Position numbers and translations under genes: made by a program. From Paracidobacterium acidisoli (GTDB taxonomy: Bacteria; Acidobacteriota; Terriglobia; Terriglobales; Acidobacteriaceae), in NCBI RefSeq assembly GCF_003428625.2, contig NZ_QVQT02000006.1:1-64000 (forward strand): DNA of 64,000 nucleotides, written 5' to 3'. The notes under the pieces were generated by a model. It worked only from the letters and a program-made list of their open reading frames with translations, was not told the DNA's origin and ran no database searches. The number at the start of each line of letters is the position of its first letter. Position 1 is the first letter of the stretch. Positions 25,504 through 59,799 of this stretch are shown one piece after another.

Positions 25504-25554
25504 CGGAAATTGTTACGATTCTGAAACGTATCCCTCGCGACAGGAGCGGTTCTG

Positions 25555-30446: not shown

Positions 30447-30515
30447 TGTGTTTTCTCCTTCTCTATAGTTCTCTGGTGCGAGCGAGCATGCATGCGGCGC
30501 GGACTGGCTGCCGAT

Positions 30516-31856: not shown

Positions 31857-31873
31857 AAATTTCGACCGCTCTC

Positions 31874-38248: not shown

Positions 38249-40480
38249 TCAGTAAGTGGATTCCTTCGGGCTCCCGTTTCCGTTCGGCTCGGAGGGTATG
38301 CCGATCTCTTCCGGAGTGGGCAGTGTGTGCTGCTGCGACCACTGCTGATGCGCGGCGGCGATCATTTGTCCGCGCCGCATCCAGAGCTGGATGGCCTGGT
38401 CGTAGCGGGCGGTGACGTTCTCAAGCCAGTAGGGGCGGTTTTCCTTCAGCCAGAGATCGCTGTAGCGCAGACGCAGATAACTGAAACCGTCGCGAAGGTC
38501 TTCGCAGAGGCCGTTGTTTCCGGCGAGGTCATTGAGGTCGCGGGAAATATGCTTTCGTCCTTCGGGATCGTGCTGCTCGTTGTAGACGGCGCGATAGCCT
38601 GCGGCGATCTGGTCGGCGGTCTGAAATTTGAAAGCGAGAAAGTCAATGCGGCGCGCGCCGAGATCGATAGCGTCGAGCGCGTCCTGCTCGCGCAAAGAAG
38701 GCGAAGCGGCGCGGGCCTGGGCGACGAGGGTGAGAGCACGCTCGGCGTCGAGGCGAAGCTGCGCGGAGACGGGACGGATCTTTGCGGCGACGCGCTGGCC
38801 TTCGCCGCTGCCGTTGCTGTGTCCGCTTCCGTTGGTATCTGCGTTTCCGCTTCCGTTGTTATCCCAGGGATCGAGCCAGAACCAGGCGTCGCGGGCGTCT
38901 TCAAGACCGGCCTGGCGGAGCAGATCGTGCGCGGCGATCAGAGCACGCTGCGCCTCGTCGATCTTTCCGGTGGTGTCGCCGTGAAAGACGGCGCCGTAAT
39001 CCTGCTGGAAGCGGGTGATATCGGTTATGCCGGGCTGCCAGGAGGCGGCGGCTCCGAAGAGGATGCCGTACCAGTCCTCGAGAAAGAGGCCTTCGCCGTC
39101 GTCGTTCCAGACGGTGTTGAGCGCGCCGGTGGAACCGGCCTTCTGACCGTCGGCGATGAAGCCCTGGATGTTGCGCAGGCCGTCATCGTAATTGGGCCAG
39201 AGGCGGTTCCAGTTATTGACGCCGGGGGCGACCCAGGTTTCGAGGCCGGCTTTGGTGTAGGGATCGAGCCAGCGGTGGAAGCCTTTGGGCTGCGGGTTGT
39301 ACTCCCATGCGACGGCGATCATGTCATGTGGGAGCTTCGGCACCAGCGCGGGGTCGTTCATGGCGATGTCGCCCCAGAAGAGCAGGCGGCGGTGAAGCGG
39401 AGCGAGCGCCTGGTGGATCTGCGTGAGGAAGTCGATGTAGACGGCGCCGAGGCCGCGCTGCTTGACCTCGGAGGATGTCTGCCCCTGGCCGAGCTGGAAG
39501 GTCTCGTCGGCGCCGATGTGCAGAAAGGGCGCGGGATAGATGGAGGCCAGCTCGCTGAACCACTGCGTGATGAGCTCGAGAGAGCCGGGCTGGCCGGGCG
39601 CGAGGACCGATCCGGCGGGCATTTCGCCGAGGGCAGCGTACTGCTGCCAGGTGAGGACGTGGTGCAGATGACCGAAGGCCTCCTGCTCCGGAATGATGGT
39701 GATGTGATACGGGCGGGCGTATGCGACGAGCGCCCTGGCGTCGGCTGCAGAGATGGAGCCGCCGGGCAGGCCCGGCAGCGGGTTCGACGCATACTGCATG
39801 GTGTTTTCAAAGTACGGCGAATAGACGTTGATTTTGTAGGCGGCGAAGGTGCGGATCTGCTGCTTCTGAAAATCGAGCGTGGGGATGGGGCCGCGGGAGA
39901 GATCGTCGTCGACGCCGCGATAGCGCATGGCAGGCCAGTCGCGGATTCTGCATCCTTTGACGACCGGATCGCCGCCGCTGCCCTGCGCGATGAGCTGCTT
40001 CAGCGTCTGCGCTCCGTAGAAGACACCTTCGGCGGTGTGGCCGATGATGTAAACCGTGTGATGCGCAGTGAGCACGACATAGCCTTCGGGCTGGGCGGCG
40101 GTGCCGAGCGAGAGGTCTTCTTCGTGAAGGAGGCGCTTTGCGGCGATCTGCGTGTCGCGCAGCAGGTAGATGTGCGCGGCGGCCGCCCTTTCGCTGATAC
40201 GGATGCCGCGCTCGCGCAGGGTCTGGGCGAGATCGGCGGCGGCGAAGCGGTCGTCTGCATCGCGGCCGGGGACCAGGATCGATGCGCCGCTGGCGAGGGA
40301 AATATCGCTGCGTGGCTCGAACTCGCGCGGCTGCGGAATCAGAGGCGGGCGGAGAGATTCGGCAGCGTAAGCCCGCATGGCATGCGGCAGACAGATGAAA
40401 ATTCCGCAACAGAGAACGATGCAAACCGGTACACGCCTGAGCACAGAGAAATAGTCATGCGTTTCGCAGGGAATGTCCAT
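38249..40480 (-). CDS. GH20-type beta-N-acetylhexosaminidase, exported
   Basis: A 743-residue enzyme with a signal peptide or anchor (hydrophobic 17-33, then HAMRAYAAES). An N-terminal GH20b-like alpha/beta domain (about 45-180) is followed by the GH20 barrel with RYRGVDDDLSRGPIP, FAAYKINVYSPYFEN, IPEQEAFGHL and the catalytic pair in HIGADETF (D325-E326). An Asn/Gly/Ser-rich linker around residue 540 (NNGSGNADTNGSGHSNGSG) leads to a helical C-terminal region of about 190 residues with no recognised function. It probably removes terminal GlcNAc from cell-wall or chitin-derived oligomers. It is the first gene of the operon with the symporter and NamZ fusion. Two direct repeats lie upstream. Confidence 0.87.
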   Translation of the reverse strand: MDIPCETHDYFSVLRRVPVCIVLCCGIFICLPHAMRAYAAESLRPPLIPQPREFEPRSDISLASGASILVPGRDADDRFAAADLAQTLRERGIRISERAAAAHIYLLRDTQIAAKRLLHEEDLSLGTAAQPEGYVVLTAHHTVYIIGHTAEGVFYGAQTLKQLIAQGSGGDPVVKGCRIRDWPAMRYRGVDDDLSRGPIPTLDFQKQQIRTFAAYKINVYSPYFENTMQYASNPLPGLPGGSISAADARALVAYARPYHITIIPEQEAFGHLHHVLTWQQYAALGEMPAGSVLAPGQPGSLELITQWFSELASIYPAPFLHIGADETFQLGQGQTSSEVKQRGLGAVYIDFLTQIHQALAPLHRRLLFWGDIAMNDPALVPKLPHDMIAVAWEYNPQPKGFHRWLDPYTKAGLETWVAPGVNNWNRLWPNYDDGLRNIQGFIADGQKAGSTGALNTVWNDDGEGLFLEDWYGILFGAAASWQPGITDITRFQQDYGAVFHGDTTGKIDEAQRALIAAHDLLRQAGLEDARDAWFWLDPWDNNGSGNADTNGSGHSNGSGEGQRVAAKIRPVSAQLRLDAERALTLVAQARAASPSLREQDALDAIDLGARRIDFLAFKFQTADQIAAGYRAVYNEQHDPEGRKHISRDLNDLAGNNGLCEDLRDGFSYLRLRYSDLWLKENRPYWLENVTARYDQAIQLWMRRGQMIAAAHQQWSQQHTLPTPEEIGIPSEPNGNGSPKESTY

Positions 40481-43708: not shown

Positions 43709-46700
43709 TCAGTGAGAGTAAGACCAGGAAAGGACGGTCTGCGTGGCGGTAAGACCGCCGGTTCCTCCGGTAAAGCCGACCCAGGCAGTGTTTCCACCGA
43801 CGATGGAGGGGATGTTGATGGTGGTCTGCTCGGTGACGGACGCGTTGGTCACGGTGTCGGTGAGCGTCATGGTCAGTGTGGTTCCGTCATAGACCAGATG
43901 CGCGTGGAAGACGTCGCCGCTGTGGAAGTTGATGGCGGTGGAGCTGAGGTCGGTGGACGGCAGAGTCGGGGATGCTCCGTTGGTGTAGAAGCCGGTTGAA
44001 TCGGAGCCCTCGCCGGAGTTGCTGTAGAGGTCGAACTTCACGGCCACGCTGTCGGGGATTCCCTGATAACCGAGGGAGCCACCGTTGCCGCCCAGAGCCC
44101 AGACGTTCTGGTTCTGGATGGCGAAGGTCATGCCGTCGGCCGAGGCATTGGTCTGCTGAAAGGTGAAGTCGGTGGTGAAGCTTTGTACCGGCACGAGGGT
44201 TGCAAACCAGGCGCTACGCGCTTCGCCTTCTCCGCCATCGGTGAGCACGAGAGAGCCGCCGGTGACGGTGGGGCCGTCATTCAGCGAGAGGTTGGCGGCG
44301 GTAAATCCGGCAGCCGGATAGTTCACATAGGTGGTGGCCGCTGTTGTGCCGCCGGTGATGGTGTAGGCCGCCGTTGCCACGGCGCTGTTGAGATAGTTAC
44401 TGGCGACGGCGATGGCCTTGAGCGTCTCCGTTGCGCTGACGGTGATGGGAGCGCTGTAGAGCGTGGAGGACGTCGTCGGAGTTGCGCCATTGGTGGTGTA
44501 GTAGATGGCCGCTCCGGCGGTGGTGTCGGAGATCGTCACCGACTGCGCCGAGGTATAGCTGCCGGCGGCCGGCGAGAAGGTGGGCGTGGCGGCGGTGGGA
44601 GCGCCTGAGCTGGTGTAGTTCGCGAACAGGATGGCGCTGGTGGCATAGCCGGATGCGACACCGATGGCGCGCACTCCGGCATTGGGGACTACGTTGAACG
44701 GTCCCGTATATACCGTGGATGACGTGGTGGGTGTACTGGAATTGGTCGTGTAATAGATGGTCGTTCCCGGCGTGGTGTCGGTGAGCGTGACCGTGACGGT
44801 TCCGGTATAGGTACTGCCGGGAGTGGGACTGGCAACGGGGGTCGCCACCGTGGGGCCGTTATAGTCGGCAATCAGAACGGCGCTGTTGGTATAGCCGCTG
44901 GCGATGGCGATGGCTCGCACTCCGGTATTGGGATTGACGGTAAACGGACCGGTGTACAGGGTGGATGAGGTGGTCGGGTTGGTCGAATTGGTCGTGTAGT
45001 AGATGCTGGCCCCGGGGGTGGCATCGGTCAGCGTAACGCTGGTGGGCGTGATGTAGGCGTTGCCCGCCGCCGGAGTGGCTACAGGGGTCGCCGCTACGGT
45101 GGAGATCGTATACGCTCCGGTGGCTACTGTGCTGTTGGTGTAGCCGCTGGCGACGGCGATGGCCTTGAGCGTCTCTGTGGCGCTGACGGCGATGGGAGCG
45201 CTGTAGAGCGTGGAGGATGTGGTCGGAGTTGTGCCGTTGGTGGTGTAGTAGATCGCCGCTCCGGTTGTGGTGTCGGAGATCGTCACCGACTGCGCCGCGT
45301 TGTAGCTTCCCGGCGCAGGTGAGAAGGTGGGCGTCGCGGCGGTCTGAGTGATGGTGTAGGCTCCGGTCGCTGTCGCGCTGTTGGTATAGCCGCTGGCGAC
45401 GGCGATGGCCTTCAGCGTCTCGGTCGTGCTGACGGCGATGGGAGCGCTGTAGAGCGTGGAGGACGTCGTCGGGGTTGTGCCGTTGGTGGTGTAGTAGATG
45501 GCCGCTCCGGTTGTTGTGTCGGAGAGGGTCACCGACTGCGCCGAGGTGTAGGTTGCCGGGACCGGTGAGAAGGTGGGCGTCGCGGCGATCTGAGTGATGG
45601 TGTAGGCACCGGTCGCTGTCGCGCTGTTGGTGTAGCCGCTGGCGACGGCGATGGCGTTCAGTGTCTCCGTAGAGCTGACCGTGATGGGAGCGCTGTAGAG
45701 CGTGGAGGACGTGGTCGGAGTTGCGCCGTTGGTGGTGTAGTAGATCGCCGCTCCGGTTGTTGTGTCAGAGAGGGTCACCGACTGCGCCGAGGTGTAGGTT
45801 GCCGGGGCCGGCGAGAAGGTGGGCGTCGCGGCGGTCTGGGTCTGGCTGGGGGAAACGGCGTACGACCAGGAGAGCACTTCCTGCGTGGCCGTCAGACCAC
45901 CGGTGCCGCCGGTGAAGCCGACATACGCGGTGTTGCCGCCTACCAGCGAGGGAATGTTGACTGTGGTTGACTCGGTGACGGACGCATTGGTGACGGTGTC
46001 GGTGAGCGTCATGGTCAGCGTGGTTCCGTCATAGACCAGATGCGCGTGGAAGATGTCGCTGCTGTGGAAGTTGATACCGGTCGAGCTGAGGTCGATCGCC
46101 GGGGTTTCGGGCACGGCGCCGTTGGTGTAGAAGCCCGTGGAATCGGACCCCTCACCGTTATTGCTGTAGAGATCGAACTTTACGGCGATGCTGTTGCCGA
46201 TGCCGCCGTAGCCGAGATAGCCGCCGTTGCCGCCGGTGACATACGGGCTCTGCCCCTGGATGGCGAAGGTCATGCCGTCGGCCGAGGCATTGGTCTGCTG
46301 GAAGGTGAAGTCGGTCACGAAGGTCTGGACCGGCACGGCCGTGGTGAACCAGGCAGATCGGTTTTCGACCGGATTGCCGTCGGTGATGACAAGCGCTCCG
46401 CCGGTGACGGAAGCGCCGTTGTTCAGAGCCAGTCCCGAGGTGGTGAAGCCCATCGAAGGATAGTTGAGATAGACCGTGGAGCCGCTGGTGATGGTATAGG
46501 CCGCGGTTCCCACGGCGCTGGTGGTGTAGCCGCTGGCGACGGCGATGGCGTTCAGCGTCTCCGTGGCGCTGACGGTGATGGGACCACTGTAGAGCGTGGA
46601 GGACGTGGTCGGAGCTGCGCCGTTGGTGGTGTAGTAGATGGCCGCTCCGGCGGTCGCGTCGGAGATGGTCACCGACTGCGCGGAGGAGTAGGCGCCGCCT

Positions 46701-49700
46701 GCGGGCGTGAAGGTCGGCGTGGCCGCGGGTCCTGCGACGGTGATGGTGTACACCGCGCTTCCCACGGCGCTGGCGGTGTAACCGCCGGCGACGGCGATGG
46801 CCTTCACCGTCTCGTTGGTGCTGACAGTGATGGGAGTGCTGTAGAGCGTGGAGGCCGTGGTGGGCGTGGAGCCGTCGGTCGTGTAGTAGAGGCTGGCTCC
46901 GGCAGTGGTGTCGGAGATGGTGACGCTCTGTGCCGCGGTGTACGTTCCGCCCTTCGGTGTAAAGACGGGCGTGGCGGCGACCGGAGTGATGGTGATGGTG
47001 AAGGTTCCGGTGGCTACGGCGCTGCTGGTGTAGCCGGCAGCGACGGCGATGGCCTTCAGCGTCTCTGTCGTGCCGACGGTGATGGGCGCGCTGTAGAGCG
47101 TGGACGACGTGGTGGGAGTGGAGCCGTCGGTCGTGTAGTAAATGCTGGCTCCGGTGGTGGAATCAGCGATGGTGACGCTCTGCGCCGCGGTGAAGCTGCC
47201 GCCGGTGGGCGTAAAGGTGGGAGTGGCTGCCGCGGGCGTCGTGCCGGTGGGGTTGGAGTAGGTCCAGGTCAGGATCTTCTGGCTGGAGCTGAGGCCGCCG
47301 GTGCCGCCGGTGAAGCCGACATACGCCGTGTTGCCGCCGACGGTGGCCGGGATGTTGACGGTCCAGCTGGTCGACCAGGTGGCCTCGGTCACCATATCGG
47401 TGATGGTCATGGAGAGCGTGGTGCCGTCGTAGCCAAGCTGCACCAGCATGGCATCGCCGCTGTGGAGGTCGATGCCGGTGGAGCTGAGATCGATCGCGGG
47501 GGTCTCCGGAATGGCGCCGTTCAGATAGAGGCCGGTGGAGTCTGGGCCTTCGCCGTTGTTGCTGTAGAGATCAAACTTCACGGCAAGGCTGTTGGCGATG
47601 CCGCCGTAGCCGAGATAACCGCCGTTGCCGCCGAGAGCGGTAAGTCCGGCGTTCTGAATGGCGAAGGTCATGCCGTCGGCGGCCGGATTGGAGAGCTGGA
47701 AGGTGAAGCTGGTGCTGAAGGACTGGACGTTGACCGGCTGATAGTACCAGGCGCTGCTGGCCTCGACCTCGCCGCCATTGGTGAGCTGCAGGCGCGAATC
47801 GTCAAGATCGGTGCTGCCGTTGAAGACCATGAGGCCGGCCGACGAGGCGAAGCCCTGGCTGAAGTCGATGGCGGTGGAGCCGGAGGCGATGTTGTACGAC
47901 ACCGTGGCAACCGCGCTGTTGGTGACGCCCGAAGCCGCTGCGATGGCGTTGATCGTTTCAGACTGGCTGACCGTGAAGGGCGCGCTGTAGAGCGTCGAGG
48001 ATGAGGTGGGGGTGGAGCCGTCGGTGGTGTAGTAGATGGCCGCGCCGCTGGTGGCGTCGGTGATGGTAACCGTCTGCGGGGAGGTGAAGCTGCCGGATTT
48101 GGGCGAGATGACCGGCGTGGCGGCCTGGCTGTTGTTGGTGTAGGTCGCCGATGTGGTCGCGCTCTGCAGGTAATTGGCGGCGCTGGCTATGGCGGTGATG
48201 GTCTCGGTCGAAGAGACGGTGATGGCGCCGCCGTAGACCGTCGAGGATGTGGTGGGGGTGGAGCCGTCGGTGGTGTAGTAGATGGCTGCGCCGGGCGTCG
48301 AGTCGGTGATCGTGACCTGGACGGTGCTGGTAAAGCCCTCAGAGGCGGGGCTGATCACGGGAGTCGCCGCCTGCGGCAGCGAGTTCAGAAGCCCGTAGAT
48401 GCTGAGCTGGCTGGCGGTGCCTACGTAGACCTTTCCGTTGACGATAGTGGGAACGGCAAACTTGATCGCCACGCCGGGATTATCGCGCGTTGCGTTCGTG
48501 GCGCTCGAATAGAGCGTGGTCGCGACGTTGGTGGCGAGATGGGCCTGGAGGATGGCGGGACCGCTCGATGAATACGCTTCGGAGTCGATGGACCAGACGA
48601 TGCCGTTGGTGTTGCCGTTGGCGGAGATGGAGGGCGTGGCTCCGGGGAAGCCGTACTGCTCGGTCGACTCCACGATGGGATAGGTAGTGAGCTGGCCGTT
48701 GACCAGCGGAAATGCCTTGAGGTTGTCGAAGCGTCCCCAGTAATAGACCGTGCCGTTCCAATAAGCGGGCGTGCTCCAGACGCCGAGGTTGCCGACGGCG
48801 TACTGCGTGGACTGGACCACCTGATCGGTGGTGTTGTAGCCGCCCATGCTGTCGCGGTTGATGAGATAGAGGTCGCCGATCTTGCCGGTCTGCACGAGGA
48901 GGTGAGGATAACTTCCGGTGGTCTGTGTGGGGACCAGCATGACGCCGCCCGAGGCCACGTCGCCATCTCCCGCATCGAGATCGGCCTGATCGGAGGGCGT
49001 GAACTCATCCTGCACGGTGGGCACGCCGTTGGTCAGATCGAGATTCAGGACGCTGTCGCCGTAATCCATGGCATTGGTATAGGGCTTGGCCGCGGTGTAA
49101 TCGCCGTTGCCGGTCGCGATGAACATCCGCCCGAAGGGATGGCTGGAGTCGGGAATATCGGCGGCGAGGCCAGCGCCGGACATCCAGAAGCCGCCGCCGA
49201 GGCCGTTGGGCGAGACGCAGTAGGCGCCGGTCTGCTGCAGCGTAGCGGCGTTATAGGAGAGTACCCACCCATGCCACGGGCCGTTGTCGCCGTGGGCCGC
49301 AAAGCCGATGTAGACGATGCCGTTCAGCAGCAGCAGGCCGGGACGCTGGTTCTCCCAGAGCGTGGAAAAGGTCAGGCTGCTTCCGGAGCTGCCGCTGCCG
49401 GTGCCGGTGACGGTGGCCGTCAGAACCACCGGACCGCCGAACTTCTCGAGGCCGGTCGTGACATCGAGAGCGTGCAGACGCTGCACGGCAGAGCCGTTCT
49501 CCATCGACTTGCTGACGACGTAGAGAGTATTGGTCGTGGGATCGATGACGGGAGTGCCGGTGATGCCGTACTGCGGCTGAATATCACCGCTGACCGTCGT
49601 GTACGGAATGGTGGTGGCTCCGGCTGCGGCGCCGTGGGCGGCGGCCAGCATGGAGGCCTGCCAGAGCAGACCGGAGGTGCTTCCGCCGTTGCTGTCGGCG

Positions 49701-50035
49701 TCGAAGGCGTAGACCGAATCGTTCTCGGTGGCGACGAAGACGACGTTATGCGTCGCGCCGTTGATGGTGAGGTTGGGCAGATAGAGAGGCTGAGCGTAGA
49801 TCTGACCGTCGACCGGCTGCGAAAAGAGCAGGCCGAACTGCGTGGGATTGACGTTTGACGGCGTCAGGATCGTCTCGTTGAGATTCTGCCCTGTGCGTCC
49901 GATGTCGTTATGCCACGTGGTGACGCTGGTCTGGGCAAATCCCGCAACCGTAACCGCAGGTAAAACCAGAAACATCGCGATCCGAAGGAAAAGTCCTGCA
50001 AAACTGCTTCGTACACCAGCCATATATCCAGTCAT
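43709..50035 (-). CDS. Giant secreted protein: propeller, chitobiase-C-like repeats and legume-lectin domains
   Basis: A 2108-residue exported protein. A signal peptide (about 12-34, ending VAGFAQT) precedes a PQQ-like beta-propeller (about 35-550; VVFVATENDSVYAFDADS, LYVVSKSMENGSAVQRLHALDVTTG). Then follow two chitobiase-C/FN3-like repeats (555-715), legume lectin 1 (717-930), three repeats (930-1187), lectin 2 (1187-1393), six repeats (1393-1900, two divergent) and lectin 3 (1902-2108). Repeats read AATPTFSPAPGSY ... IYYTTNGTTPTTSSTLYSAP. Lectins carry MTFAIQN, GYLGYGG and AVKFDLYSNNGEG. No sortase, GPI-like or membrane anchor is visible, so it is probably released or non-covalently bound as a polysaccharide- or cell-binding adhesin. 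ATG 50035 is preceded by GAGGA. Confidence 0.88.
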   Translation of the reverse strand: MTGYMAGVRSSFAGLFLRIAMFLVLPAVTVAGFAQTSVTTWHNDIGRTGQNLNETILTPSNVNPTQFGLLFSQPVDGQIYAQPLYLPNLTINGATHNVVFVATENDSVYAFDADSNGGSTSGLLWQASMLAAAHGAAAGATTIPYTTVSGDIQPQYGITGTPVIDPTTNTLYVVSKSMENGSAVQRLHALDVTTGLEKFGGPVVLTATVTGTGSGSSGSSLTFSTLWENQRPGLLLLNGIVYIGFAAHGDNGPWHGWVLSYNAATLQQTGAYCVSPNGLGGGFWMSGAGLAADIPDSSHPFGRMFIATGNGDYTAAKPYTNAMDYGDSVLNLDLTNGVPTVQDEFTPSDQADLDAGDGDVASGGVMLVPTQTTGSYPHLLVQTGKIGDLYLINRDSMGGYNTTDQVVQSTQYAVGNLGVWSTPAYWNGTVYYWGRFDNLKAFPLVNGQLTTYPIVESTEQYGFPGATPSISANGNTNGIVWSIDSEAYSSSGPAILQAHLATNVATTLYSSATNATRDNPGVAIKFAVPTIVNGKVYVGTASQLSIYGLLNSLPQAATPVISPASEGFTSTVQVTITDSTPGAAIYYTTDGSTPTTSSTVYGGAITVSSTETITAIASAANYLQSATTSATYTNNSQAATPVISPKSGSFTSPQTVTITDATSGAAIYYTTDGSTPTSSSTLYSAPFTVSQSETINAIAAASGVTNSAVATVSYNIASGSTAIDFSQGFASSAGLMVFNGSTDLDDSRLQLTNGGEVEASSAWYYQPVNVQSFSTSFTFQLSNPAADGMTFAIQNAGLTALGGNGGYLGYGGIANSLAVKFDLYSNNGEGPDSTGLYLNGAIPETPAIDLSSTGIDLHSGDAMLVQLGYDGTTLSMTITDMVTEATWSTSWTVNIPATVGGNTAYVGFTGGTGGLSSSQKILTWTYSNPTGTTPAAATPTFTPTGGSFTAAQSVTIADSTTGASIYYTTDGSTPTTSSTLYSAPITVGTTETLKAIAVAAGYTSSAVATGTFTITITPVAATPVFTPKGGTYTAAQSVTISDTTAGASLYYTTDGSTPTTASTLYSTPITVSTNETVKAIAVAGGYTASAVGSAVYTITVAGPAATPTFTPAGGAYSSAQSVTISDATAGAAIYYTTNGAAPTTSSTLYSGPITVSATETLNAIAVASGYTTSAVGTAAYTITSGSTVYLNYPSMGFTTSGLALNNGASVTGGALVITDGNPVENRSAWFTTAVPVQTFVTDFTFQQTNASADGMTFAIQGQSPYVTGGNGGYLGYGGIGNSIAVKFDLYSNNGEGSDSTGFYTNGAVPETPAIDLSSTGINFHSSDIFHAHLVYDGTTLTMTLTDTVTNASVTESTTVNIPSLVGGNTAYVGFTGGTGGLTATQEVLSWSYAVSPSQTQTAATPTFSPAPATYTSAQSVTLSDTTTGAAIYYTTNGATPTTSSTLYSAPITVSSTETLNAIAVASGYTNSATATGAYTITQIAATPTFSPVPATYTSAQSVTLSDTTTGAAIYYTTNGTTPTTSSTLYSAPIAVSTTETLKAIAVASGYTNSATATGAYTITQTAATPTFSPAPGSYNAAQSVTISDTTTGAAIYYTTNGTTPTTSSTLYSAPIAVSATETLKAIAVASGYTNSTVATGAYTISTVAATPVATPAAGNAYITPTSVTLTDATPGASIYYTTNSTNPTTSSTLYTGPFTVNPNTGVRAIAIASGYTNSAVLIADYNGPTVATPVASPTPGSTYTGTVTVTLTDTTPGTTIYYTTNSSTPTTSSTVYTGPFNVVPNAGVRAIGVASGYATSAILFANYTSSGAPTAATPTFSPAAGSYTSAQSVTISDTTAGAAIYYTTNGATPTTSSTLYSAPITVSATETLKAIAVASNYLNSAVATAAYTITGGTTAATTYVNYPAAGFTAANLSLNDGPTVTGGSLVLTDGGEGEARSAWFATLVPVQSFTTDFTFQQTNASADGMTFAIQNQNVWALGGNGGSLGYQGIPDSVAVKFDLYSNSGEGSDSTGFYTNGASPTLPSTDLSSTAINFHSGDVFHAHLVYDGTTLTMTLTDTVTNASVTEQTTINIPSIVGGNTAWVGFTGGTGGLTATQTVLSWSYSH
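44340..45840 (-). repeat. Six consecutive coding repeats of about 245 bp
   Basis: The six chitobiase-C-like units before lectin 3 form tandem DNA repeats of about 245 bp (82 codons). The phrase GAGCGCTGTAGAGCGTGGA recurs near 44450, 45195, 45440 and 45690. Units near 44640-45070 are divergent (TGPF in place of SAPI). High identity between units indicates expansion by recombination and a risk of assembly collapse. Confidence 0.8.
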
Positions 50036-50533
50036 TTTTGTCGTGTCCTCATTCTTCTGTACTGCTCAGCGTGAGTCTGCATGTGTGCCTGAACGGCACC
50101 AACGCTCTTTCATCCGCACCGTAACCGGCTCTGTGGCACACATAGCCGGTCCTGCCCGGCAGACAGTGCGAGACCGTCTGACGAACGACATCAGGGGGAC
50201 CGAAAGAAGGCAGCGCCCAGGGACGAGCCTCCCGGGAACGAACTGCCAGAGGGGAGGGATTGCAGGACGGGGAAAAAACCCGCAACCACTATATTTTCTA
50301 ATTGTTTTTCGTTACGCGGGGAACAATTTTCTGCGTTGTTTGCCACTGGTAACGAGAGAAGAGTTACTCTCTGTCGCATTTCAGAACACCTTCGTTGCAG
50401 ATTTGGGAAAAATACGGTGAAAGATCCGTTTCGCAACGTCTCTTTTGTGCCGGCAGGCCTCCGCGGTTGTGCGATCCAGGGTTGCGCTGAAGCACAGGCT
50501 CACGGCACATTCATGACAGGAGACCTTCACAGG
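50036..50533. other. Divergent intergenic region between the giant lectin gene and the S9-family gene
   Basis: About 500 bp holding both divergent promoters. Short inverted arms GTAAC-N9-GTTAC and GAGAG-N8-CTCTC overlap near 50349-50370 before the S9-family gene and could be an operator. I checked for a cyclic-di-GMP riboswitch pattern by eye and did not find one. The frame starting at 50336 is treated as leader, because the signal peptide begins later. Confidence 0.45.
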
Positions 50534-52813
50534 ATGGATCGATTGCGGTTCGCTGTGCGCGTATGCCGTTCCGGGCTCGCGCTGTCTTTGCTGCTTCTGC
50601 CGGGTCGATTTTTCTGTGCGGCACAGACGAATTCGGCTTCCCCTTTGCTGACGCCGGAGCGTCTGGCTTCCCTGCCCGGCCTGAACGGCGATCCCATGCA
50701 GGAGCCTCACTGGAGCGCCGACGGAAGCCACCTTGCCTTTCTGCACAGCCCGGAGGCCGGTCCGCACGCCCGCAGAGATCCGCATGCCCAGCCGGAGATT
50801 CGCGTGGTGGAGGCAGGCGACGGAAAGCCTTCGGTGCTGCTTTCCTCACAGGCGGTTCGCGATGCGCTGGAGCCGGGCCCGCATGTGCCGGTTGCGCCCG
50901 ATGACGAGGATGACGACGACGGGATTCCGCCGACACGGCTGACGGACTTTGCCTGGGCCCCGGATGGCCACGGCGTTTTACTGATCGCCTCCGCTTCCCT
51001 TGCCTGGTACGACCTGCGGAGCGCTTCGGCGCACATGCTGATCTCCGGGAGCGCGACTCTCAGCGATGCCGCGCTCTCACCGGACGGAAAGACGGTGGCC
51101 TTTGTCCGCGACCACAGCGTGTGGCTGGTTGCGGTGGCGGGTGGAGCGGCGCATCTCTTTACACCGCGCGGACAGGAGACGCTGCGCGAGGGCGAGCCGG
51201 ACTGGCCTTATCGCAGCGAACTCGGCGTGCGCGCCGCATTCTGGTGGTCTCCGGACTCGAAGCAGATTGCGTGGCTGGAGACCGACGACCATGCCGTCGC
51301 CCGCTATGAGATCCGCGAGTCGAATGGCGAGATGCGGAGCATCGCGTATCCGAAGCCTGGCGGAGCTATCCCCGGGGTCCGTGTCTTCGTCCGGGCGGTG
51401 AGCGGCGGGACGGCCCGACGGATGGAGCTGGACCCGGCGGAGAATGTGTATCTGCCTCGCGTCGAGTGGCTGCCGGACTCGAAGGAACTGGCGATCGAGC
51501 GGCTCAGCCGGACGCAGAAGGTGCTGGAGTATCTGATTGTCGATGCGGCGACGGGAAGATCGTATGTTGCCGTGACCGATCGCGACGCTTACTGGATCAA
51601 TCTCTCGGACGATCTGCACTTTCTGAGCGATTCGCGCCGCTTTGTGATTTCGAGCGAGCGGGCGGGTTATCGCCATCTCTATCTCTATGACACCAGCGGG
51701 AAGCAGCTTGCGCAGCTGACGCAGGGCCCGTGGGAGGTTACGCATCTGGATGCCGTGGATGAGAAGGCCGGGCTGGCTTACTTTACCTCGACGCAGCGCA
51801 GTCCTCTGGAGCGGCAGGTTTACAGCGTACGGCTCGACGGCAGCGGCCTGACGCAGGTGACCCAGGAGCCGGGAACACACCGGCCCTTCTTTTCTCCGAA
51901 CGAGCAGAGCTTTCTGGATACGTGGTCGGACCGCAACACGCCGCCGCGCCAGGATCTGGTGCGCGCCGATGGACAGCGAGTGGCGACGGTGACGCCGAGC
52001 GCAGCGCCGCTGCTGGCGTCCTTTGCCCTGCCGCCGGTGGAGCTGACGACGGTGAAGCTGCATCCGGATGAGTCGCTGCGGGCACTGATGATTCGTCCTC
52101 CGGCGTTTCATGCCGGAGAGCGGTATCCGGTGCTGGTTTATTTTCCGGGCGGTCCGCCGATGGCCGGAGGGCCGGGCGAACAGGTGGCCCGCGATGTGTG
52201 GGGCGGCGACACGATGCTGTGGCTGCGCTCGATGGCGCAGCGCGGCTACCTGGTCTTTGCCCTCGACCATCACGGCACCCGCGGCCAGAGCCATCTCTTC
52301 GAGGAGCCGCTGCACTACCGCTTCTCCGCGGCGGAGATGTCGGACCAGCGGGACGGGGTGCGCTTTCTGGCATCGCTTCCCTACGTCGATGCGTCGCGGA
52401 TCGGCGTCTGCGGATGGGGCTACGGGGGCTTTCTGGTGCTGCACGCGATGCTGCACAAGCCGCTGCTGTACAAAGCGGGGTTTGCGGGAGCTCCGGTGAT
52501 CGACTGGCATTACTATGACGCGATCTTCGGGGAACGCTATCTGGGCGATGTGGTGACCTATGCCGACGGGTGGAATGCCTCGACGCCGCTGGAGGACGTG
52601 GCCAATCTGAAGAGTCCTTTGCTGGTGGCGCAGGGCACGGCGGACGAATACGTCCACATAGAGAACACCGACACGCTGCTCAACCGGCTGCTGGACGCGG
52701 GCAAATATGCCGATGTGCTGCTCTTTCCGGACCGCGGGCACACGATCGACGATCCCCAGGCAAAGCGCATTCTTTACGAGCGCATGACGGCGTTTTTTCT
52801 GAAGAACCTTTAA
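50534..52813 (+). CDS. S9/DPP4-family exported protein with glycine at the catalytic serine position
   Basis: A 759-residue protein with a signal peptide (RLRFAVRVCRSGLALSLLLLPGRFFCAAQT), then a DPP4-type beta-propeller (about 60-490) and an alpha/beta-hydrolase domain. The nucleophile elbow is C-G-W-G-Y-G-G: residue 629 is Gly (GGC), where S9 enzymes have Ser in GWSYGG. Asp704 (GTADEYVH) and His736 (DRGHTID) are kept at normal spacing. The Glu-Glu pair that anchors the substrate N-terminus in DPP4 is also altered (DWPYRSELG, residues 223-231). It is thus probably catalytically dead as a peptidase, perhaps a binding protein. The start ATG 50534 is preceded by AGGAG; an upstream ATG 50513 is possible. 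Confidence 0.88.
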   Translation: MDRLRFAVRVCRSGLALSLLLLPGRFFCAAQTNSASPLLTPERLASLPGLNGDPMQEPHWSADGSHLAFLHSPEAGPHARRDPHAQPEIRVVEAGDGKPSVLLSSQAVRDALEPGPHVPVAPDDEDDDDGIPPTRLTDFAWAPDGHGVLLIASASLAWYDLRSASAHMLISGSATLSDAALSPDGKTVAFVRDHSVWLVAVAGGAAHLFTPRGQETLREGEPDWPYRSELGVRAAFWWSPDSKQIAWLETDDHAVARYEIRESNGEMRSIAYPKPGGAIPGVRVFVRAVSGGTARRMELDPAENVYLPRVEWLPDSKELAIERLSRTQKVLEYLIVDAATGRSYVAVTDRDAYWINLSDDLHFLSDSRRFVISSERAGYRHLYLYDTSGKQLAQLTQGPWEVTHLDAVDEKAGLAYFTSTQRSPLERQVYSVRLDGSGLTQVTQEPGTHRPFFSPNEQSFLDTWSDRNTPPRQDLVRADGQRVATVTPSAAPLLASFALPPVELTTVKLHPDESLRALMIRPPAFHAGERYPVLVYFPGGPPMAGGPGEQVARDVWGGDTMLWLRSMAQRGYLVFALDHHGTRGQSHLFEEPLHYRFSAAEMSDQRDGVRFLASLPYVDASRIGVCGWGYGGFLVLHAMLHKPLLYKAGFAGAPVIDWHYYDAIFGERYLGDVVTYADGWNASTPLEDVANLKSPLLVAQGTADEYVHIENTDTLLNRLLDAGKYADVLLFPDRGHTIDDPQAKRILYERMTAFFLKNL

Positions 52814-52845: not shown

Positions 52846-53385
52846 TCAGCCTCGCGCCGGAGAGGTAAAGGCGTCCATCATAATGCCGATGGAGATGAGC
52901 AGCGCGGCGAAGATCCAGAGCCAGCCGATGGTGAGCAGACCGTCGCGCGCAGTGTACAGAATGCGGTCGATCTGATGGAGGGAGATGACCTCCACGCACC
53001 AGAAGCTGAAGGAGAGACAGCCGCCGGCTGTGGCGACAGCGGCCCAGGCGCGGCCCCGCAGTCTTCGGAAGACGCGGCCAAGGAGCAGCATGAGCACGAG
53101 AGCCAGCAGGATCAGCAGCACGGTCTGCACGATGCGGCGCTGGTCGTACAGATGGAGGGCGATGAATTGCGCCTGGAACCAGCGGTGCAGTATCCAGCGC
53201 GTGTTGAAGGCCAGGTCGAGGAGCTGCGCGAGCTCGAGAAGGCCGAGAGCCCCGGCGAGACGGGCGGGGCCTCCGGTATGGACGCTAGGGACAGGGACAG
53301 TACTTCCGGAACGGGCGCGGGCGGCGATGCAGGCAACCAATGCGACGCCGGACGCCATCAGACCAGCCACACGAGTCTGCATCAC
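52846..53385 (-). CDS. Hypothetical multi-pass membrane protein
   Basis: A 179-residue protein that I do not recognise. It has hydrophobic segments at the N-terminus (VAGLMASGVALVACIAA), at about 88-103 (TVLLILLALVLMLLLGRV), about 115-135 (AAVATAGGCLSFSFWCV) and near the C-terminus (LLTIGWLWIFAALLISIGIMM), so probably four helices. Between helices 1 and 2 lies a region with WILHRWFQAQFIALHLYDQRR. Convergent with the S9-family gene and divergent from the Wzy-like gene, which suggests a part in the envelope-polysaccharide region. The start could also be an internal codon. Confidence 0.65.
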   Translation of the reverse strand: MMQTRVAGLMASGVALVACIAARARSGSTVPVPSVHTGGPARLAGALGLLELAQLLDLAFNTRWILHRWFQAQFIALHLYDQRRIVQTVLLILLALVLMLLLGRVFRRLRGRAWAAVATAGGCLSFSFWCVEVISLHQIDRILYTARDGLLTIGWLWIFAALLISIGIMMDAFTSPARG

Positions 53386-53570: not shown

Positions 53571-55070
53571 ATGAATGTCCTCCCCCTGTGCATTCTGCTG
53601 GCCTGGATACCGGTCAGCGTTCTGCTCTATTACCGGTTCCCTGTGCGCACGGCGACGCTGCTGGTGTTCGTGGGCGGATGGGCGATACTGCCCGCAGCGG
53701 CCTATGAGCCGTCGACCAATTCCTTTCCTTACTGGATTCTGGGCACCAGCCTTGCGACAAATTACTTCGTTACCAAGGCCAGCGTCATCGGGCTGGGCGG
53801 GCTGACGGGATTTCTGCTCTCTCACCGGCACGATATCCGCGAATTCCGGCTCACTTACTGGGACTTCCCGATGGTGATCTGGTGCGTGGTGCCGCTGCTG
53901 TCGGCGATTGCCAATCCGGGCGTGCCGTTTTCGAGCGGGCTGAAGTACGAGCTATATCAGATGCTGGCGTGGGGCGTTCCTTATATGCTGGGGCGTCTTT
54001 ACTTCTCCGATACCGAATCGCTGCGGCTGGCCGCGCAGGCCTTTGTAATCGCCGCGCTCTTTTATATTCCCATCTGCATCTTCGAAATCTGGAAGGGGCC
54101 GCAGCTCTACGCCCACCTTTACGGTTATGAGCCGTACCGCTGGACCGGAGCACAGCGCTACTTCGGCTACCGGCCGATCGGCTTTCTCGAAACCGGCAAT
54201 CAGCTCGGCATCTGGATGGCGACGGCGGCGCTGATCGCGATATGGCTGTGGGCCAAGAAGATCATGACGCACGTTCTGGGCATGCCCATTGCCGTCGTGG
54301 CGCTGAGCCTGTTCGTGGTGACGCTGTGCTGCCAGTCGGGCGCGAGCATTGTGCTGCTGCTGGTGCTGCTGCCCTTTGTCTTCGTCAGCCACCGCACCTT
54401 TCCCCGCGCGATGGCGGTGTTTCTGGTGACCGGGGTGCTGCTCTTTGCCGGACTGCGACTGTCGAACGTGGTCTCCGTACAGACGCTGGTGCGGAGGAAC
54501 CCGGCGGCCCATTCGGTGGCGCACTTTCTGAAGCGGATCGGCCGCGGATCGCTGGGCTGGCGGCTGGTCGAGGACGAGCGGCATGTGGGCATCGCGCTCG
54601 AAAAGCCGCTGCTGGGTTATGGAGAGTGGGACTGGTGGCGGCGGAGCGTGCTGCGCCCGTGGGGGCTGTGGCTGCTCTCGTTCGGAATGTACGGGATGTT
54701 CGGGCTGGTGGCGCTGGAAGCGCTTCAGTTTGCGCCGGTGATTCGCGTGGTCTGGTTTCCGCTGGCCCGCTCCGATATCGAGGCCCTGAATCTGCGCCAT
54801 GCACTGGCGGCGGCCATTCTGATGTCGGCGGTGGACAATCTGCTGAACAGCTCGATGATTCTGCCTCTGCTGCTGGTGATGGGCGGCATGAGCACGTGGG
54901 AGTCCGCGGCGGCAAAGGTCGAGGTCAACGTGGAGGGTCCGGAGATCGAGACCAGACCGCTGCTGCTGGAGGAGCCGGAGAGAGGCTTCCGCGAGCATCC
55001 GGGGCAGGAGGCGATGCCCCGGCACACGGAAGAGCTGAGCGGTTCCGTGCGGCTGATCGACGGAAAATGA
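53571..55070 (+). CDS. Wzy/O-antigen-ligase-like membrane protein
   Basis: A 499-residue inner-membrane protein with about 10-12 helices and a large loop with KGPQLYAHLYGYEPYRWTGAQRYFGYRPIGFLETGNQLGIWMATAAL, broadly resembling O-antigen polymerase/ligase family members (seen in short stretches such as RPIGFLETGNQLG). The last 90 residues are hydrophilic and acidic. It precedes, convergently, the initiating glycosyltransferase gene, so a role in polymerising or transferring exopolysaccharide repeat units is likely but unproven. ATG 53571 is 185 bp after the divergent hypothetical membrane gene. Confidence 0.72.
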   Translation: MNVLPLCILLAWIPVSVLLYYRFPVRTATLLVFVGGWAILPAAAYEPSTNSFPYWILGTSLATNYFVTKASVIGLGGLTGFLLSHRHDIREFRLTYWDFPMVIWCVVPLLSAIANPGVPFSSGLKYELYQMLAWGVPYMLGRLYFSDTESLRLAAQAFVIAALFYIPICIFEIWKGPQLYAHLYGYEPYRWTGAQRYFGYRPIGFLETGNQLGIWMATAALIAIWLWAKKIMTHVLGMPIAVVALSLFVVTLCCQSGASIVLLLVLLPFVFVSHRTFPRAMAVFLVTGVLLFAGLRLSNVVSVQTLVRRNPAAHSVAHFLKRIGRGSLGWRLVEDERHVGIALEKPLLGYGEWDWWRRSVLRPWGLWLLSFGMYGMFGLVALEALQFAPVIRVVWFPLARSDIEALNLRHALAAAILMSAVDNLLNSSMILPLLLVMGGMSTWESAAAKVEVNVEGPEIETRPLLLEEPERGFREHPGQEAMPRHTEELSGSVRLIDGK

Positions 55071-55354: not shown

Positions 55355-56869
55355 CTATGACCCGGTTCCGCGGAAGACCACCTCAGCGGTCCGGACCAGA
55401 ATTTTCAGGTCCAGCCAGAGGCTCCAGTTTTCCACGTAGGCAAGATCGAGCGCCACGTACCGCTCGAAGGATGGATCCTGACGCGCACGCACCTGCCACA
55501 GGCCGGTAAGCCCGGGCATCACTTCCAGACGGCGGTAGTGTTCCAGCTCGTATTTCTCGACTTCGCTGGCCAGCGGCGGCCGGGGGCCTACCAGACTCAT
55601 CTCACCGCGCAGCACGTTGAACAGCTGCGGCAGCTCGTCGAGGCTGTATTTGCGAAGAATGCGGCCCACGCGGGTTATGCGGGGATCATCCTTCATTTTG
55701 AAGAGAATTCCGGTGCGCTCGTTCTTTGCAGCGAGAGCGGCCTTGAGCTGTTCGGCGTTGGCCACCATGGTCCGGAATTTGAGGCAGGGGAAGTAACGGC
55801 CTTTGCGTCCGATGCGCTCGGAGACGTAGAAGACCGATCCTTCAGAGTCGAAGCGCACGGCCAGAGCGATCAGCAGCAGGATCGGAGAGAGCAGCAGCAT
55901 GATGATCGTGGCCAGAACGACATCCGAGGCCCGCTTGAGAAAGTACGCAATCGCCTTCTCGTCGCGGTGATGAATGGAGACCACCGGGAAGTCGCCGAGG
56001 TATTCGATGGAGGCTTCCGGCGTGAGGCCGTCGTAGAAGCCAGGCACGACCAGCACTTCGATACCGAGCTCGCGGGCGAGATCCACCAGGCTGAGAACGG
56101 TCGCGGTGCTGCAGCTTTCCGTGATGATGACTTCGTCGATGAAATGCAGGCGGGTGAGATAGCGGAGCTGATCGAAGGTGCCGAGCACCTGTCCGGGATG
56201 GGCCTGAGGAGCGGAGCAGGTACCGGGCATCTCGATGAAGCCCTTGAAGGTCCGTCCGAGATGACCGTTGCCGACGATCTGCTTGTACATCGCCGTGCTC
56301 ATGGTGCTGGTACCGAGGATGAGCACGTTGTGCGTGTCCAGACCGCGCTCGTAGCGGCGGAAGGCCGTGCGGCGCCAGTAAAGTCTGGAGATGGAGAAGA
56401 AGATGGTCGTCAGTCCGATGAGCCACGCCACGACGGCACGCGAGATGAGCACGCCGTGCATCATGTAAATGGCTCCGCAAAGCAGCAGGCCGGCGGTAAG
56501 GCAGGACTGTACGGCTTTGCGCTGCTCGTTCAGAGTGCTGTAGGTCAGCGAGCTTCCGTAGAGGCCGTGATGGTGCGCCACAGCGAGAAGCGCGGCGAGA
56601 AACAGCGCGAGGTAGGAGAGCTGAATGTGAATGGGCGTCTGCGACTGGATCAGATGCTTCAGGCTCGTACCGGGAACCATCCAGCGTTCGAGGCCGAAGC
56701 GCAGAGCCAGCGCCAGTGAAATCAGAATGCCGGCAACGTCGCAGCCCATCATGAGACGGGCGTTGAATCCTGCACGGGTTGCGGTGCGGCGGCGGATGCC
56801 GCCGGTGGAAACAGATTTGCCGGGGAAGGTTTTGTGCCTGGCAACACTATCAAGGCTGATTGTAGCCAT
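55355..56869 (-). CDS. Polyprenyl-phosphate initiating glycosylphosphotransferase (exopolysaccharide)
   Basis: A 504-residue WcaJ/WbaP-type enzyme that transfers the first sugar-phosphate onto undecaprenyl phosphate. It has four or five N-terminal helices, a CoA-binding-like middle domain (RGLDTHNVLILGTSTMSTAMYKQIV) and a C-terminal bacterial sugar transferase domain with KRASDVVLATIIMLLLSPIL, GRYFPCLKFRTMV, KYSLDELPQLFNVLRGEMSLVGPRPPL and MPGLTGLWQV. These are the signature motifs of the family. It would start synthesis of the exopolysaccharide whose polymerase-like gene is adjacent and convergent. Confidence 0.94.
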   Translation of the reverse strand: MATISLDSVARHKTFPGKSVSTGGIRRRTATRAGFNARLMMGCDVAGILISLALALRFGLERWMVPGTSLKHLIQSQTPIHIQLSYLALFLAALLAVAHHHGLYGSSLTYSTLNEQRKAVQSCLTAGLLLCGAIYMMHGVLISRAVVAWLIGLTTIFFSISRLYWRRTAFRRYERGLDTHNVLILGTSTMSTAMYKQIVGNGHLGRTFKGFIEMPGTCSAPQAHPGQVLGTFDQLRYLTRLHFIDEVIITESCSTATVLSLVDLARELGIEVLVVPGFYDGLTPEASIEYLGDFPVVSIHHRDEKAIAYFLKRASDVVLATIIMLLLSPILLLIALAVRFDSEGSVFYVSERIGRKGRYFPCLKFRTMVANAEQLKAALAAKNERTGILFKMKDDPRITRVGRILRKYSLDELPQLFNVLRGEMSLVGPRPPLASEVEKYELEHYRRLEVMPGLTGLWQVRARQDPSFERYVALDLAYVENWSLWLDLKILVRTAEVVFRGTGS

Positions 56870-57774: not shown

Positions 57775-58671
57775 ATGTCTTTTTCTGCCGCTGTTGAAAG
57801 TCCATCGACCGAGTCCATATTCGAAGCTGCCAATCCTGGTTTCCAGGAGAATTTCGACGAACTGCCGTTTGCCTTCTCTCACTGCTTCAACGAGAGCCAC
57901 CCCCTGTTCCAGCTCTCACGGCTTCGCAGGCTGATGGAGAATCCGGAGACGCGGAAGGGTGTGTACTACGACGCCGGCGAGATTCGCGTCGACCAGCGGT
58001 GGGACTCGATTCCCGAGCGCAAGGTAACGATGGAAGAGGCCTTCGACAACATCGGCAACGCCGGCGCCTGGATGATCTTTCGCCGCGTGAGCCTCGATCC
58101 GGATTACAACATGCTGCTGGACCAGTGCCTGGACGAGGTAAAGCGGCTGAGCGGCAGAAAGATCGATGAGGACCAGAAGAGCCAGGAGGCGATGATCTTC
58201 GTGACATCGCCCAACCGCGTCACCTCGTATCACATCGACCGCGAATGCAACTTTCTTATGCAGGTTCGCGGCAAAAAAACGATCAATGTATTTGACCGCA
58301 ATGATCGGGACGTTATGCCCGAGCATGAGCTGGAGACGTTCTGGTCCAAAGACAACAATGCCGGCATTTATAAGCCGGAGTACCAGGACCGGGCCTTCGT
58401 CTTTGAAATGAAGCCCGGCACCGGCGTACATATTCCGGTAAACTCCCCGCACTGGCTGAAGAACGGAGATAACATCTCTATCTCGTTCAGCATCAGTTAT
58501 CAGTACAAAGATACAAACAGGAAGTACGTGTACCAGGCAAACTATTATCTTCGCAGGATGGGTTTTCAGCCTACCCCTCCGGGCCGGTCGGCGCTGATCG
58601 ACGGTACAAAAAAGACATTCGTCGAAGCCGGGCTGAAAGGGAAGAAATTATTGCAGTTTGGCAGGCACTGA
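57775..58671 (+). CDS. Cupin/JmjC-like Fe(II)/2-oxoglutarate oxygenase family protein 1
   Basis: A 298-residue cytoplasmic protein of the cupin-like/JmjC fold. The probable iron facial triad is H153-x-D155 (S-Y-H-I-D-R) and distal His226 (VNSPHWLKNG); H219 in TGVHIPV is an alternative. Conserved neighbours include NFLMQVRGKKTINVFDRNDRD (core strand) and VFEMKPGTGVHIP. Members of this group are often hydroxylases of small molecules or proteins, but the substrate is not known. ATG 57775 is preceded by AAGGAG. A paralogue lies 237 bp downstream on the same strand, the pair being flanked by exopolysaccharide and envelope genes. Confidence 0.8.
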   Translation: MSFSAAVESPSTESIFEAANPGFQENFDELPFAFSHCFNESHPLFQLSRLRRLMENPETRKGVYYDAGEIRVDQRWDSIPERKVTMEEAFDNIGNAGAWMIFRRVSLDPDYNMLLDQCLDEVKRLSGRKIDEDQKSQEAMIFVTSPNRVTSYHIDRECNFLMQVRGKKTINVFDRNDRDVMPEHELETFWSKDNNAGIYKPEYQDRAFVFEMKPGTGVHIPVNSPHWLKNGDNISISFSISYQYKDTNRKYVYQANYYLRRMGFQPTPPGRSALIDGTKKTFVEAGLKGKKLLQFGRH

Positions 58672-58691
58672 TTTAACGCGCAAGACGGCAC

Positions 58692-58859
58692 GCAGGCCTG
58701 CAGAAGTATTTCTGCCTCCAGAGACTGACTGAACATCCATCTTCTTACCGTTCATTCAGCCGTGTCTTTTCAGGTAACTAACCGTCGAGGGCCCTTTTGG
58801 CGGTCGACACTCCCCAATCGCAGCAGGGTGGTTCACCGCCACCGCACTTTGCCGTGCGG
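58692..58859 (+). other. Structured gap between the two cupin/JmjC-like genes
   Basis: The palindrome GCAGGCCTGC (58692-58701) overlaps GCAGAA-gtat-TTCTGC, which may end the first gene's transcript. Further on, GGTGG / CCACC arms (58827-58843) and a perfect CCGCAC-N6-GTGCGG hairpin (58842-58859) lie about 50 bp before the second gene, possibly a folded leader. No gene was seen. Confidence 0.4.
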
Positions 58860-58908
58860 ACGATTCCTCGGCGCTGGTCCCGAATTTATGGCCAGCGGGG
58901 AGTTCTGA

Positions 58909-59799
58909 ATGGATACTGCTCCGATTACGGTTCTTTGCCCGAATCCTGCATCCAGAGCGCTTTTCCGCGTCGGATGGGACCGTGTTCCGTTTGAGTTTTC
59001 GCATGCTCTTTATGCGTCAGAGCTGTTCTCGCTTCCGGCTCTGATCGATCTTGCCAGGCGGGTGGCTCCCCGTTCCAACCGATCGTACGTGGAAGAAGAC
59101 CACACGGCGCCCGGCAACGGATGGAGCGACCGCCCGTCGAAGAAGTCCCTCGTCGAAAATCTCGAAGAGATCGCCGACACGCATTCTCTGGTGATGCTGA
59201 AGCGCGTGCACGAGGAGCCGGAGTACCGCTGCGTTCTCGACGCCTGCACCGATGAGCTGTCGCAGCTTTCGGGCATCGACATGCGCCGGAGCTATCGCGA
59301 TGCGCTGATGACGATCCTGATTACGTCACCGGGGCGGATCACACCCTACCATATCGACTCGGAAGCGAACCTGCTGATGCAGATGCACGGATCGAAGTCG
59401 GTCTTCATCTTCGACGGAAACGATCGCGAGGTGCTGCCGGCGGTCGAGCTGGAGCGCTTCTGGTCGGGCGATATCAAGGCGGCGACCTATCGTGAGCAGC
59501 TTCAGGAGCGGGCGTGGCGATTCGAGCTCTCTCCGGGCGTCGGCGTCTGCAATCCGATCATCTTTCCGCACTGGGTGCAGAACGGCCAGAATGTCTCGGT
59601 GTCGCTCAGCATTAACTACAAGCGCGTCGCGGACCAGTCGGCGGATGTCTTCCGGATGAATGCCAGGCTGCGGAAGATCGGCCTGCATCCTTCAGAGCCC
59701 GGACACAGACCGATGCGGGACGGAACCAAGGCCGGTCTTTACCGCACCATTCGCAACGTCAACCACGTGCTGCACCCGCGCAAAACGCATCACGCATAA
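58909..59799 (+). CDS. Cupin/JmjC-like Fe(II)/2-oxoglutarate oxygenase family protein 2
   Basis: A 296-residue paralogue of the preceding protein over its whole length: PYHIDSEANLLMQMHG (H148, D150), SKSVFIFDGNDREVLP, VELERFWSGD and FPHWVQNGQNVSVSLSINY (H221). The triad is complete. The alternative histidine position of the first protein is Cys214 here (GVGVCNP), which supports His221 as the true ligand. The C-terminal third (MNARLRKIGLHPSEPGHRPMRDGTKAG) matches the first protein's MGFQPTPPGRSALIDGTKK pattern. ATG 58909 is preceded by GGGGAG. A terminator follows. The substrate is unknown. Confidence 0.8.
   Translation: MDTAPITVLCPNPASRALFRVGWDRVPFEFSHALYASELFSLPALIDLARRVAPRSNRSYVEEDHTAPGNGWSDRPSKKSLVENLEEIADTHSLVMLKRVHEEPEYRCVLDACTDELSQLSGIDMRRSYRDALMTILITSPGRITPYHIDSEANLLMQMHGSKSVFIFDGNDREVLPAVELERFWSGDIKAATYREQLQERAWRFELSPGVGVCNPIIFPHWVQNGQNVSVSLSINYKRVADQSADVFRMNARLRKIGLHPSEPGHRPMRDGTKAGLYRTIRNVNHVLHPRKTHHA

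Follow-up and report, generated by a model that had tools for sequence, protein, structure and literature searches.

The window, that is the whole stretch of 64,000 nucleotides of Paracidobacterium acidisoli DNA analysed here, carries on its forward strand at 50534..52813 a 759-codon open reading frame, beginning with the ATG at 50534, whose 759 aa product is a DPP4-type protein of the S9B group. The Pfam domains DPPIV_N (the propeller, 6e-82) and Peptidase_S9 (2e-39) cover its whole length, both far above the Pfam cut-off, its tree position is within the DPP4s, and its closest solved structure is the S. maltophilia DPP4 2ecf (phmmer, E 1.8e-104). The N-terminus is hydrophobic and, by hydropathy, secretion-signal-like. 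An AlphaFold2 model made from a 5-sequence alignment (mean pLDDT 62.9, hydrolase half poor) was compared with 2ecf (TM 0.73, rmsd 6.5) and was used for the overall fold only, not for pocket geometry.

The nucleophile elbow of this protein, located from sequence and alignments at 52412..52429 (+), reads GWGYGG (GGA TGG GGC TAC GGG GGC) and lies in frame in the 759-codon ORF, so that Gly629 (GGC, 52418-52420) replaces the nucleophile Ser, as a first-pass annotation of this DNA had already read it. The triad Asp704 (codon 52643..52645, +) and His736 (codon 52739..52741, +) are both kept in the window protein, by sequence and alignment, and all three residues carry the numbers that the annotation had assigned to them. 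It had also declared the Glu-Glu pair of the substrate-anchor region lost, which proved right for one Glu only: where active relatives have DWVYxEEL, the window protein has DWPYRSELG (residues 223-231; 51200..51226, +), the first Glu being replaced by Ser228 and the second being retained as Glu229. Further changes lie beyond those it listed, at the positions Tyr547, Tyr666 and Asn710; Ala544 aligns with Tyr547, the oxyanion Tyr of DPP4, and Phe665 and Tyr706 occupy what we take to be the human DPP4 positions Tyr666 and Asn710, respectively. The roles of DPP4 residues are those of the literature and of general knowledge of the enzyme. Pocket residues still present are Trp628, Tyr661 and Glu229.

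A divergent intergenic region of 498 bp (50036..50533) separates this pseudo-DPP4 gene from the gene of a giant protein of 2108 aa on the opposite strand (43709..50035, -), a recurrent neighbour of the pseudo-DPP4 and its proposed partner. No exact word of 10-13 bases was common to at least 4 of 9 such intergenic regions. By Pfam, the giant protein holds 11 CHB_HEX_C_1 stretches and 3 L-type lectin domains, and its first ~560 aa match no Pfam family. This N-terminal domain, hereafter giantN (48356..50035, -), served as the query for co-occurrence searches and trees. Its profile had no significant match among solved structures, the best being 8gy2, a quinone alcohol dehydrogenase, at E 0.066, and a PQQ-like propeller is therefore only a guess; AlphaFold2 run on the single sequence gave no usable model (pLDDT 33.9). 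A match of the giant protein to NCBIfam NF042962 reached 42 bits against a cut-off of 1200 and was dismissed as composition. The pseudo-DPP4 gene is flanked on its other side by the gene of a small hydrophobic protein of 179 aa (52846..53385, -) with no Pfam or NCBIfam match, homologues of which (37-40% identity) stand on the same side of the pseudo-DPP4 in L046, L047 and L048. It is followed by a polytopic membrane protein (53571..55070, +), O-antigen polymerase/ligase-like by inspection and also without a Pfam or NCBIfam match, and by a bacterial sugar transferase of the exopolysaccharide initiation type (55355..56869, -; Pfam Bac_transf 2e-68).

Active-site residues and origin of the non-Ser clade

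Homologues were searched in partly overlapping samples of 300 genomes of the family, 397 of the order, 399 of the class and 297 of the phylum. The 162 proteins aligned comprise all matches above the E cut-offs, the own-genome paralogue L002 and three Bacteroidota proteins (L017-L019); five distant own-genome S9 paralogues (L003-L007), all with Ser at the motif, stand outside this set, and L016, from the same contig as L008, was not counted. L113, which has an internal stop, was counted as Ser and omitted from the trees, and L060 was omitted from alignment A2. In the nucleophile column, 148 of the 162 homologues have Ser, 11 have Gly, and Ala (L020), Asn (L101) and Gln (L155) occur once each; Ser had stood in 97/111 of the first homologue set, before the 51 remaining were added. 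Wherever the Ser-bearing rows have sequence at the other sites, these are complete, with both Glu in 145/145, Tyr547 in 148/148, Asp in 146/146 and His in 146/146. The 14 non-Ser proteins have both Glu in 0/14 and the Tyr in 1/14 (L015 only), and keep the Asp in 12/13 and the His in 5/13, L011 ending at a contig end and thus dropping out of the last two counts.

A maximum-likelihood tree, computed from 47 of the 111 rows without 13 active-site columns, unites all 14 non-Ser proteins in one clade (100/99). Rooted on other DPP4s, this clade nests in the active-type DPP4s of f7, a different family within the class, and the next two forks up are supported at 99/93 and 100/99. Trees were made from 47 of 71 rows and later from 47 of 111; the last 51 homologues are in the alignment only. 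Another S9B group of the window's family (L023-L036), less closely related at 30-33% identity, has retained the catalytic residues. These sequences are most simply read as a single loss of Ser, after which the site changed among Gly, Ala, Asn and Gln. The window protein thus has an orthologous clade that shares its change and its altered Glu region, as the first-pass annotation had envisaged, and all 148 homologues outside this clade have Ser. Decay of the gene in a lone strain is ruled against by the 13 other members (10 Gly, 1 Ala, 1 Asn, 1 Gln), which are also without Ser. Since these relatives are non-Ser and use all four Gly codons (GGC, GGA, GGT and GGG), Gly629 is not a product of chance or of a base-call error.

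The preservation of Asp and His, also claimed by the annotation, holds for the window protein; in the clade the Asp is nearly always present and the His is lost in 8/13, so that the leftover triad is not maintained across it. This bears on the idea that the pocket was re-used by a different enzyme, for another hydrolysis or transfer without a Ser nucleophile. Such an enzyme could account for an Asp704 that nearly every member keeps and for Gln700, Phe665 and Ala544, new residues around the pocket that the core clade has nearly fixed; nonetheless, as the His is mostly lost and different members have different residues in place of the nucleophile, no common catalytic set is left, and we hold this idea to be very improbable. 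Another idea is that the proteins are peptide receptors that bind the free N-termini of X-Pro or X-Ala peptides and leave them uncut. The fold and part of the pocket do persist, in the window protein as the three pocket residues named above, yet no clade member has the N-terminus-anchoring Glu pair intact, and the equivalents of Tyr547, Tyr666 and Asn710 are altered in its core, so that a receptor of this kind appears decidedly unlikely.

As for selection, four pairs drawn from 13 clade members have dS under 1.5, and their dN/dS (NG86) of 0.14-0.19 is similar to the 0.10-0.23 of the 12 pairs listed, out of 111, of active f7 proteins. None of the 14 clade matches has an internal stop. Among the 11 core members 139 positions are invariant. 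At ten sites these 11 dead proteins nearly all share one residue and the active f7 proteins nearly all share another. Among such sites are the nucleophile, the positions of Tyr547 and Tyr666, the His that immediately precedes the GT-x-D motif and the residue that follows the triad Asp. Hydrophobic, export-type N-termini are found in 12 of the 14 members as modelled, L010 and L101 being modelled with doubtful starts. One clade member, L008/L016, is from a contig of a Silvibacterium metagenome assembly, within the window's family.

Could the gene simply be a peptidase gene in the course of being lost, by neutral decay, or the product of a sequencing error? The catalytic residues have gone piecemeal in different members, and L155 is without most of them, which fits decay. 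All 14 members are non-Ser, however, with every Gly codon in use, and the dN/dS near that of the active f7 proteins, the intact frames and the invariant core positions speak against it. The low dN/dS and the recurrent linkage to a giant lectin-type gene, described below, argue in particular against decay, which we find barely credible. The catalytic set is stably lost under purifying selection, the dN/dS part of this statement resting on four pairs. From the sequences, this looks like a maintained loss of catalysis, not decay, and the clade would have lost its peptidase activity. The annotation had favoured a pseudo-enzyme with a retained binding role over decay; its first half is supported by the clade-wide loss, the low dN/dS and the linkage, and a retained binding role of the pseudo-DPP4 may be envisaged.

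The most degenerate member is L155 (G697, 8228-10330), in which the nucleophile is Gln (GMQYGA) and one Glu, the Tyr and the His are also gone. It is still in frame, 29 bp downstream of its own giant lectin gene.

Linkage to giant lectin-type genes

The dead DPP4 gene directly adjoins a giant CHB_HEX_C/lectin-type gene in 11 of the 14 loci. Six of these, namely the window, L039, L041, L047, L048 and L008, have a divergent neighbour of the giantN type, which in L008 is a giantN fragment only, the contig ending there. Three loci of genus g44 (L038, L040, L042) have another large CHB_HEX/lectin-type protein, also divergent; this adjoining giant is without giantN, which is found elsewhere in those genomes. 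The remaining two belong to family f6, where the giant gene is co-directional and separated by 77 bp (L124) or 29 bp (L155), as opposed to the divergent order of family f1, that of the window. As for the other three loci, a giant lies 5 kb off on the same contig in L046, a lectin protein lies 7 kb off in L037, and L043, the locus of the L015 gene, has no giant or lectin neighbour.

Controls were Ser-bearing homologues with wide flanks (L044, L119-L123, L125-L130, L156 and L045), none of whose 14 loci had a lectin or giantN match; L127 is short on one side, and two are less apt as controls, L044 because its search did not include the CHB_HEX query and L045 because it is a remote S9 paralogue. 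There was likewise no match in 53 Ser-bearing loci with flanks of up to 1.5 kb, ten genes of which are shared with the 14. No giant lectin-type neighbour was found in any of the 10 wide-flank f7 loci, and in L119, an active f7 locus, the annotated neighbours are unrelated. The last 91 homologues are almost flankless, except L155 and L156, and so fall outside the linkage evidence. The Fisher comparison sets 11/14 against 0/13 loci and ignores relatedness, the linkage counts being phylogenetically non-independent.

The two genes also co-occur at the level of genomes. A giantN of at least 67% identity is present in 10 of the 397 order genomes, all of which hold a core dead DPP4; in the eleventh genome with a core dead DPP4, G214, giantN adjoins the gene as a fragment (77%) where the contig ends. 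In genomes without a dead DPP4 the best giantN reaches 59% (G099). This search scored up to three candidates per genome at a cut-off of E 1e-150, and giantN fragments or extra copies may therefore be missed; the 397-genome samples of the DPP4 and giantN searches were taken as identical. Moreover, the pair appears to have moved jointly. In G168, a genome of genus g44, the dead DPP4 (100/100) and the adjacent giantN (100/99) group with genus g9, and a second, unlinked giantN of the same genome groups with its own genus g44 (100/99). Most simply, the tree positions would reflect an exchange of the linked pair between genera, in one direction or the other; an old duplication followed by losses is a less simple alternative. 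In f6, the giantN proteins of L124 and L155 pair together, as do their DPP4s. Lectin-type and giantN-type genes are multicopy in some genomes; G071, the genome of L015, has three giantN copies of 54-56% identity, none of them adjacent to the dead DPP4.

Beyond the pair itself, genes of the exopolysaccharide type lie near the dead DPP4 in 8 of the 12 f1 loci: GT4-type glycosyltransferases with an acyltransferase or a Wzy_C homologue in L037, L038, L040 and L042, WecG-STAS proteins in L041 and L043, Wzy_C in L046 and Bac_transf in the window. None was seen in L047, L048 or the short contigs of L008 and L039. The same is true of the two f6 loci; the small number of neighbours scanned there encode a histidine kinase, a TPR protein, an oxidoreductase and a HEAT protein. 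When the exopolysaccharide-type genes, giantN and three neighbour proteins (the 179-aa protein of the window and two of unknown function from L037) were used together as queries, 14/14 dead-clade loci were matched against 0/14 controls. The queries came from four of these 14 loci, the window, L037, L041 and L046, whose self-matches carry no weight, and the f6 loci matched giantN only. An exopolysaccharide link is thus suggestive, for f1 only. In L037, a gene of NRPS-like type (Condensation, AMP-binding, PP-binding, Thioesterase; 1850-5887, +) lies a few genes upstream of the dead DPP4.

These surroundings raise the possibility that the dead DPP4 is a passenger, the pair having been brought together by a shared island of polysaccharide and surface-protein genes with no functional tie between them. 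The glycosyltransferase, WecG-type, Wzy_C, acyltransferase and sugar-transferase genes of the eight f1 loci are in keeping with such an island, as are the several lectin-type and giantN-type copies of some genomes. Nevertheless, the same pairing is found in two gene orders and again in f6, whose few scanned neighbours differ in kind, and in f1 the dead DPP4 co-occurs with one giantN subclade; we regard a mere passenger as unlikely.

A proposed non-catalytic partner and comparable animal proteins

Most dead relatives adjoin a giant lectin-type gene, and the pseudo-DPP4 is for this reason probably a partner rather than an enzyme. The account that we prefer, and which we consider fairly probable, is that of an exported, catalytically dead DPP4 that was repurposed once from an active DPP4 as the non-catalytic partner of the giant protein. 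The ancestor would have been an active DPP4, made of a propeller and an alpha/beta-hydrolase domain, recruited a single time by the giant protein, which is of a secreted type and combines CHB_HEX_C with legume-type lectin domains. From the gene linkage and the joint grouping in the trees a physical partnership may be proposed: at the cell surface, the two proteins may bind one another or a common glycan. The propeller and what was once the DPP4 cavity could then provide the giant protein with a platform for docking, folding or anchoring within a polysaccharide matrix. The matrix role is the weakest step of this account, as exopolysaccharide-type genes were unseen in 4/12 f1 and in both f6 loci.

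S9B proteins without the nucleophile are known from animals. In DPP10 (DPPY) the Ser is replaced by Gly (GKGYGG), and the position corresponding to Tyr547 of human DPP4, named as such in PMC4350108, is also replaced; in DPP6 (DPPX) the Ser is replaced by Asp (PMC4350108). According to the same source, both modulate Kv4 channels, a role unrelated to catalysis, and restoring the Ser does not make them active. The bacterial clade shares with them the S9B fold and the replaced nucleophile, and a sequence search with the window protein does find the DPP10 and DPP6 structures 4wjl (4e-51) and 1xfd (3e-45). Nonetheless, DPP10 and DPP6 are single-pass membrane proteins of animals, and DPP10 keeps the Glu-Glu pair (PMC4350108) that is broken in the bacterial clade. 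The latter is closer to bacterial DPP4s, as the E value for 2ecf given above indicates, than to 4wjl and 1xfd, and is linked to a giant lectin-type gene. Since the dead clade nests among bacterial DPP4s, it most likely has an origin separate from that of the animal proteins, in a tree built without animal sequences. With regard to the active-type bacterial DPP4s (S. maltophilia 2ecf, P. mexicana 5yp1 and the f7 homologues), the two-domain architecture is the same and full length; the f7 homologues are 38-47% identical to the window protein and, unlike the dead clade, keep the Ser, the Tyr, the Glu-Glu pair and the triad.

More tentatively, at somewhat less than even confidence, we propose that the clade parallels DPP6/DPP10 in prokaryotes: a giant lectin/CHB_HEX surface protein would have recruited a DPP4 once, with loss of catalysis, and the two genes would form a surface-matrix module travelling across acidobacteria families.

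A survey of prokaryotic prolyl oligopeptidases reports the triad as highly conserved in the subtypes that it studied, and the words "inactive" and "lack" do not occur in its main text (PMC4522959). A search of the literature by title and start of abstract, with most subscription journals outside its coverage, found no description of a bacterial S9B pseudo-peptidase clade. S9B pseudo-peptidases as such are known, and the literature searched showed no bacterial clade of them with a giant lectin-type gene as a recurrent neighbour. Inactive S9B proteins are known from animals, in which they turned into subunits of ion channels; an independent clade in bacteria, itself with a gene partner that recurs, would offer a second and more tractable case of a protease turned into a partner. 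It would also suggest a testable role for the giant lectin-type proteins of acidobacteria. Furthermore, annotations as "dipeptidyl peptidase" in such genomes can mislead as to activity.

Finally, other gene groups of the window deserve mention. At 34250-36700 (-) a serine hydrolase domain of the beta-lactamase type is fused to an exo-beta-N-acetylmuramidase NamZ, and this fusion adjoins a GH20 protein (38249-40480) and a sodium:solute symporter, in what looks like a set for the scavenging of peptidoglycan and amino sugars. A short-chain dehydrogenase, a UxaE-type tagaturonate epimerase, an MFS transporter and a UxaC-type isomerase stand in a row at 28363-33268 (-), which looks like a uronate catabolism cluster. 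Four ORFs of 283-449 aa on one strand (20926-26712, -) have no Pfam match, and two adjacent genes at 57775-59799 (+) have weak Cupin_8 matches below the curated cut-off.
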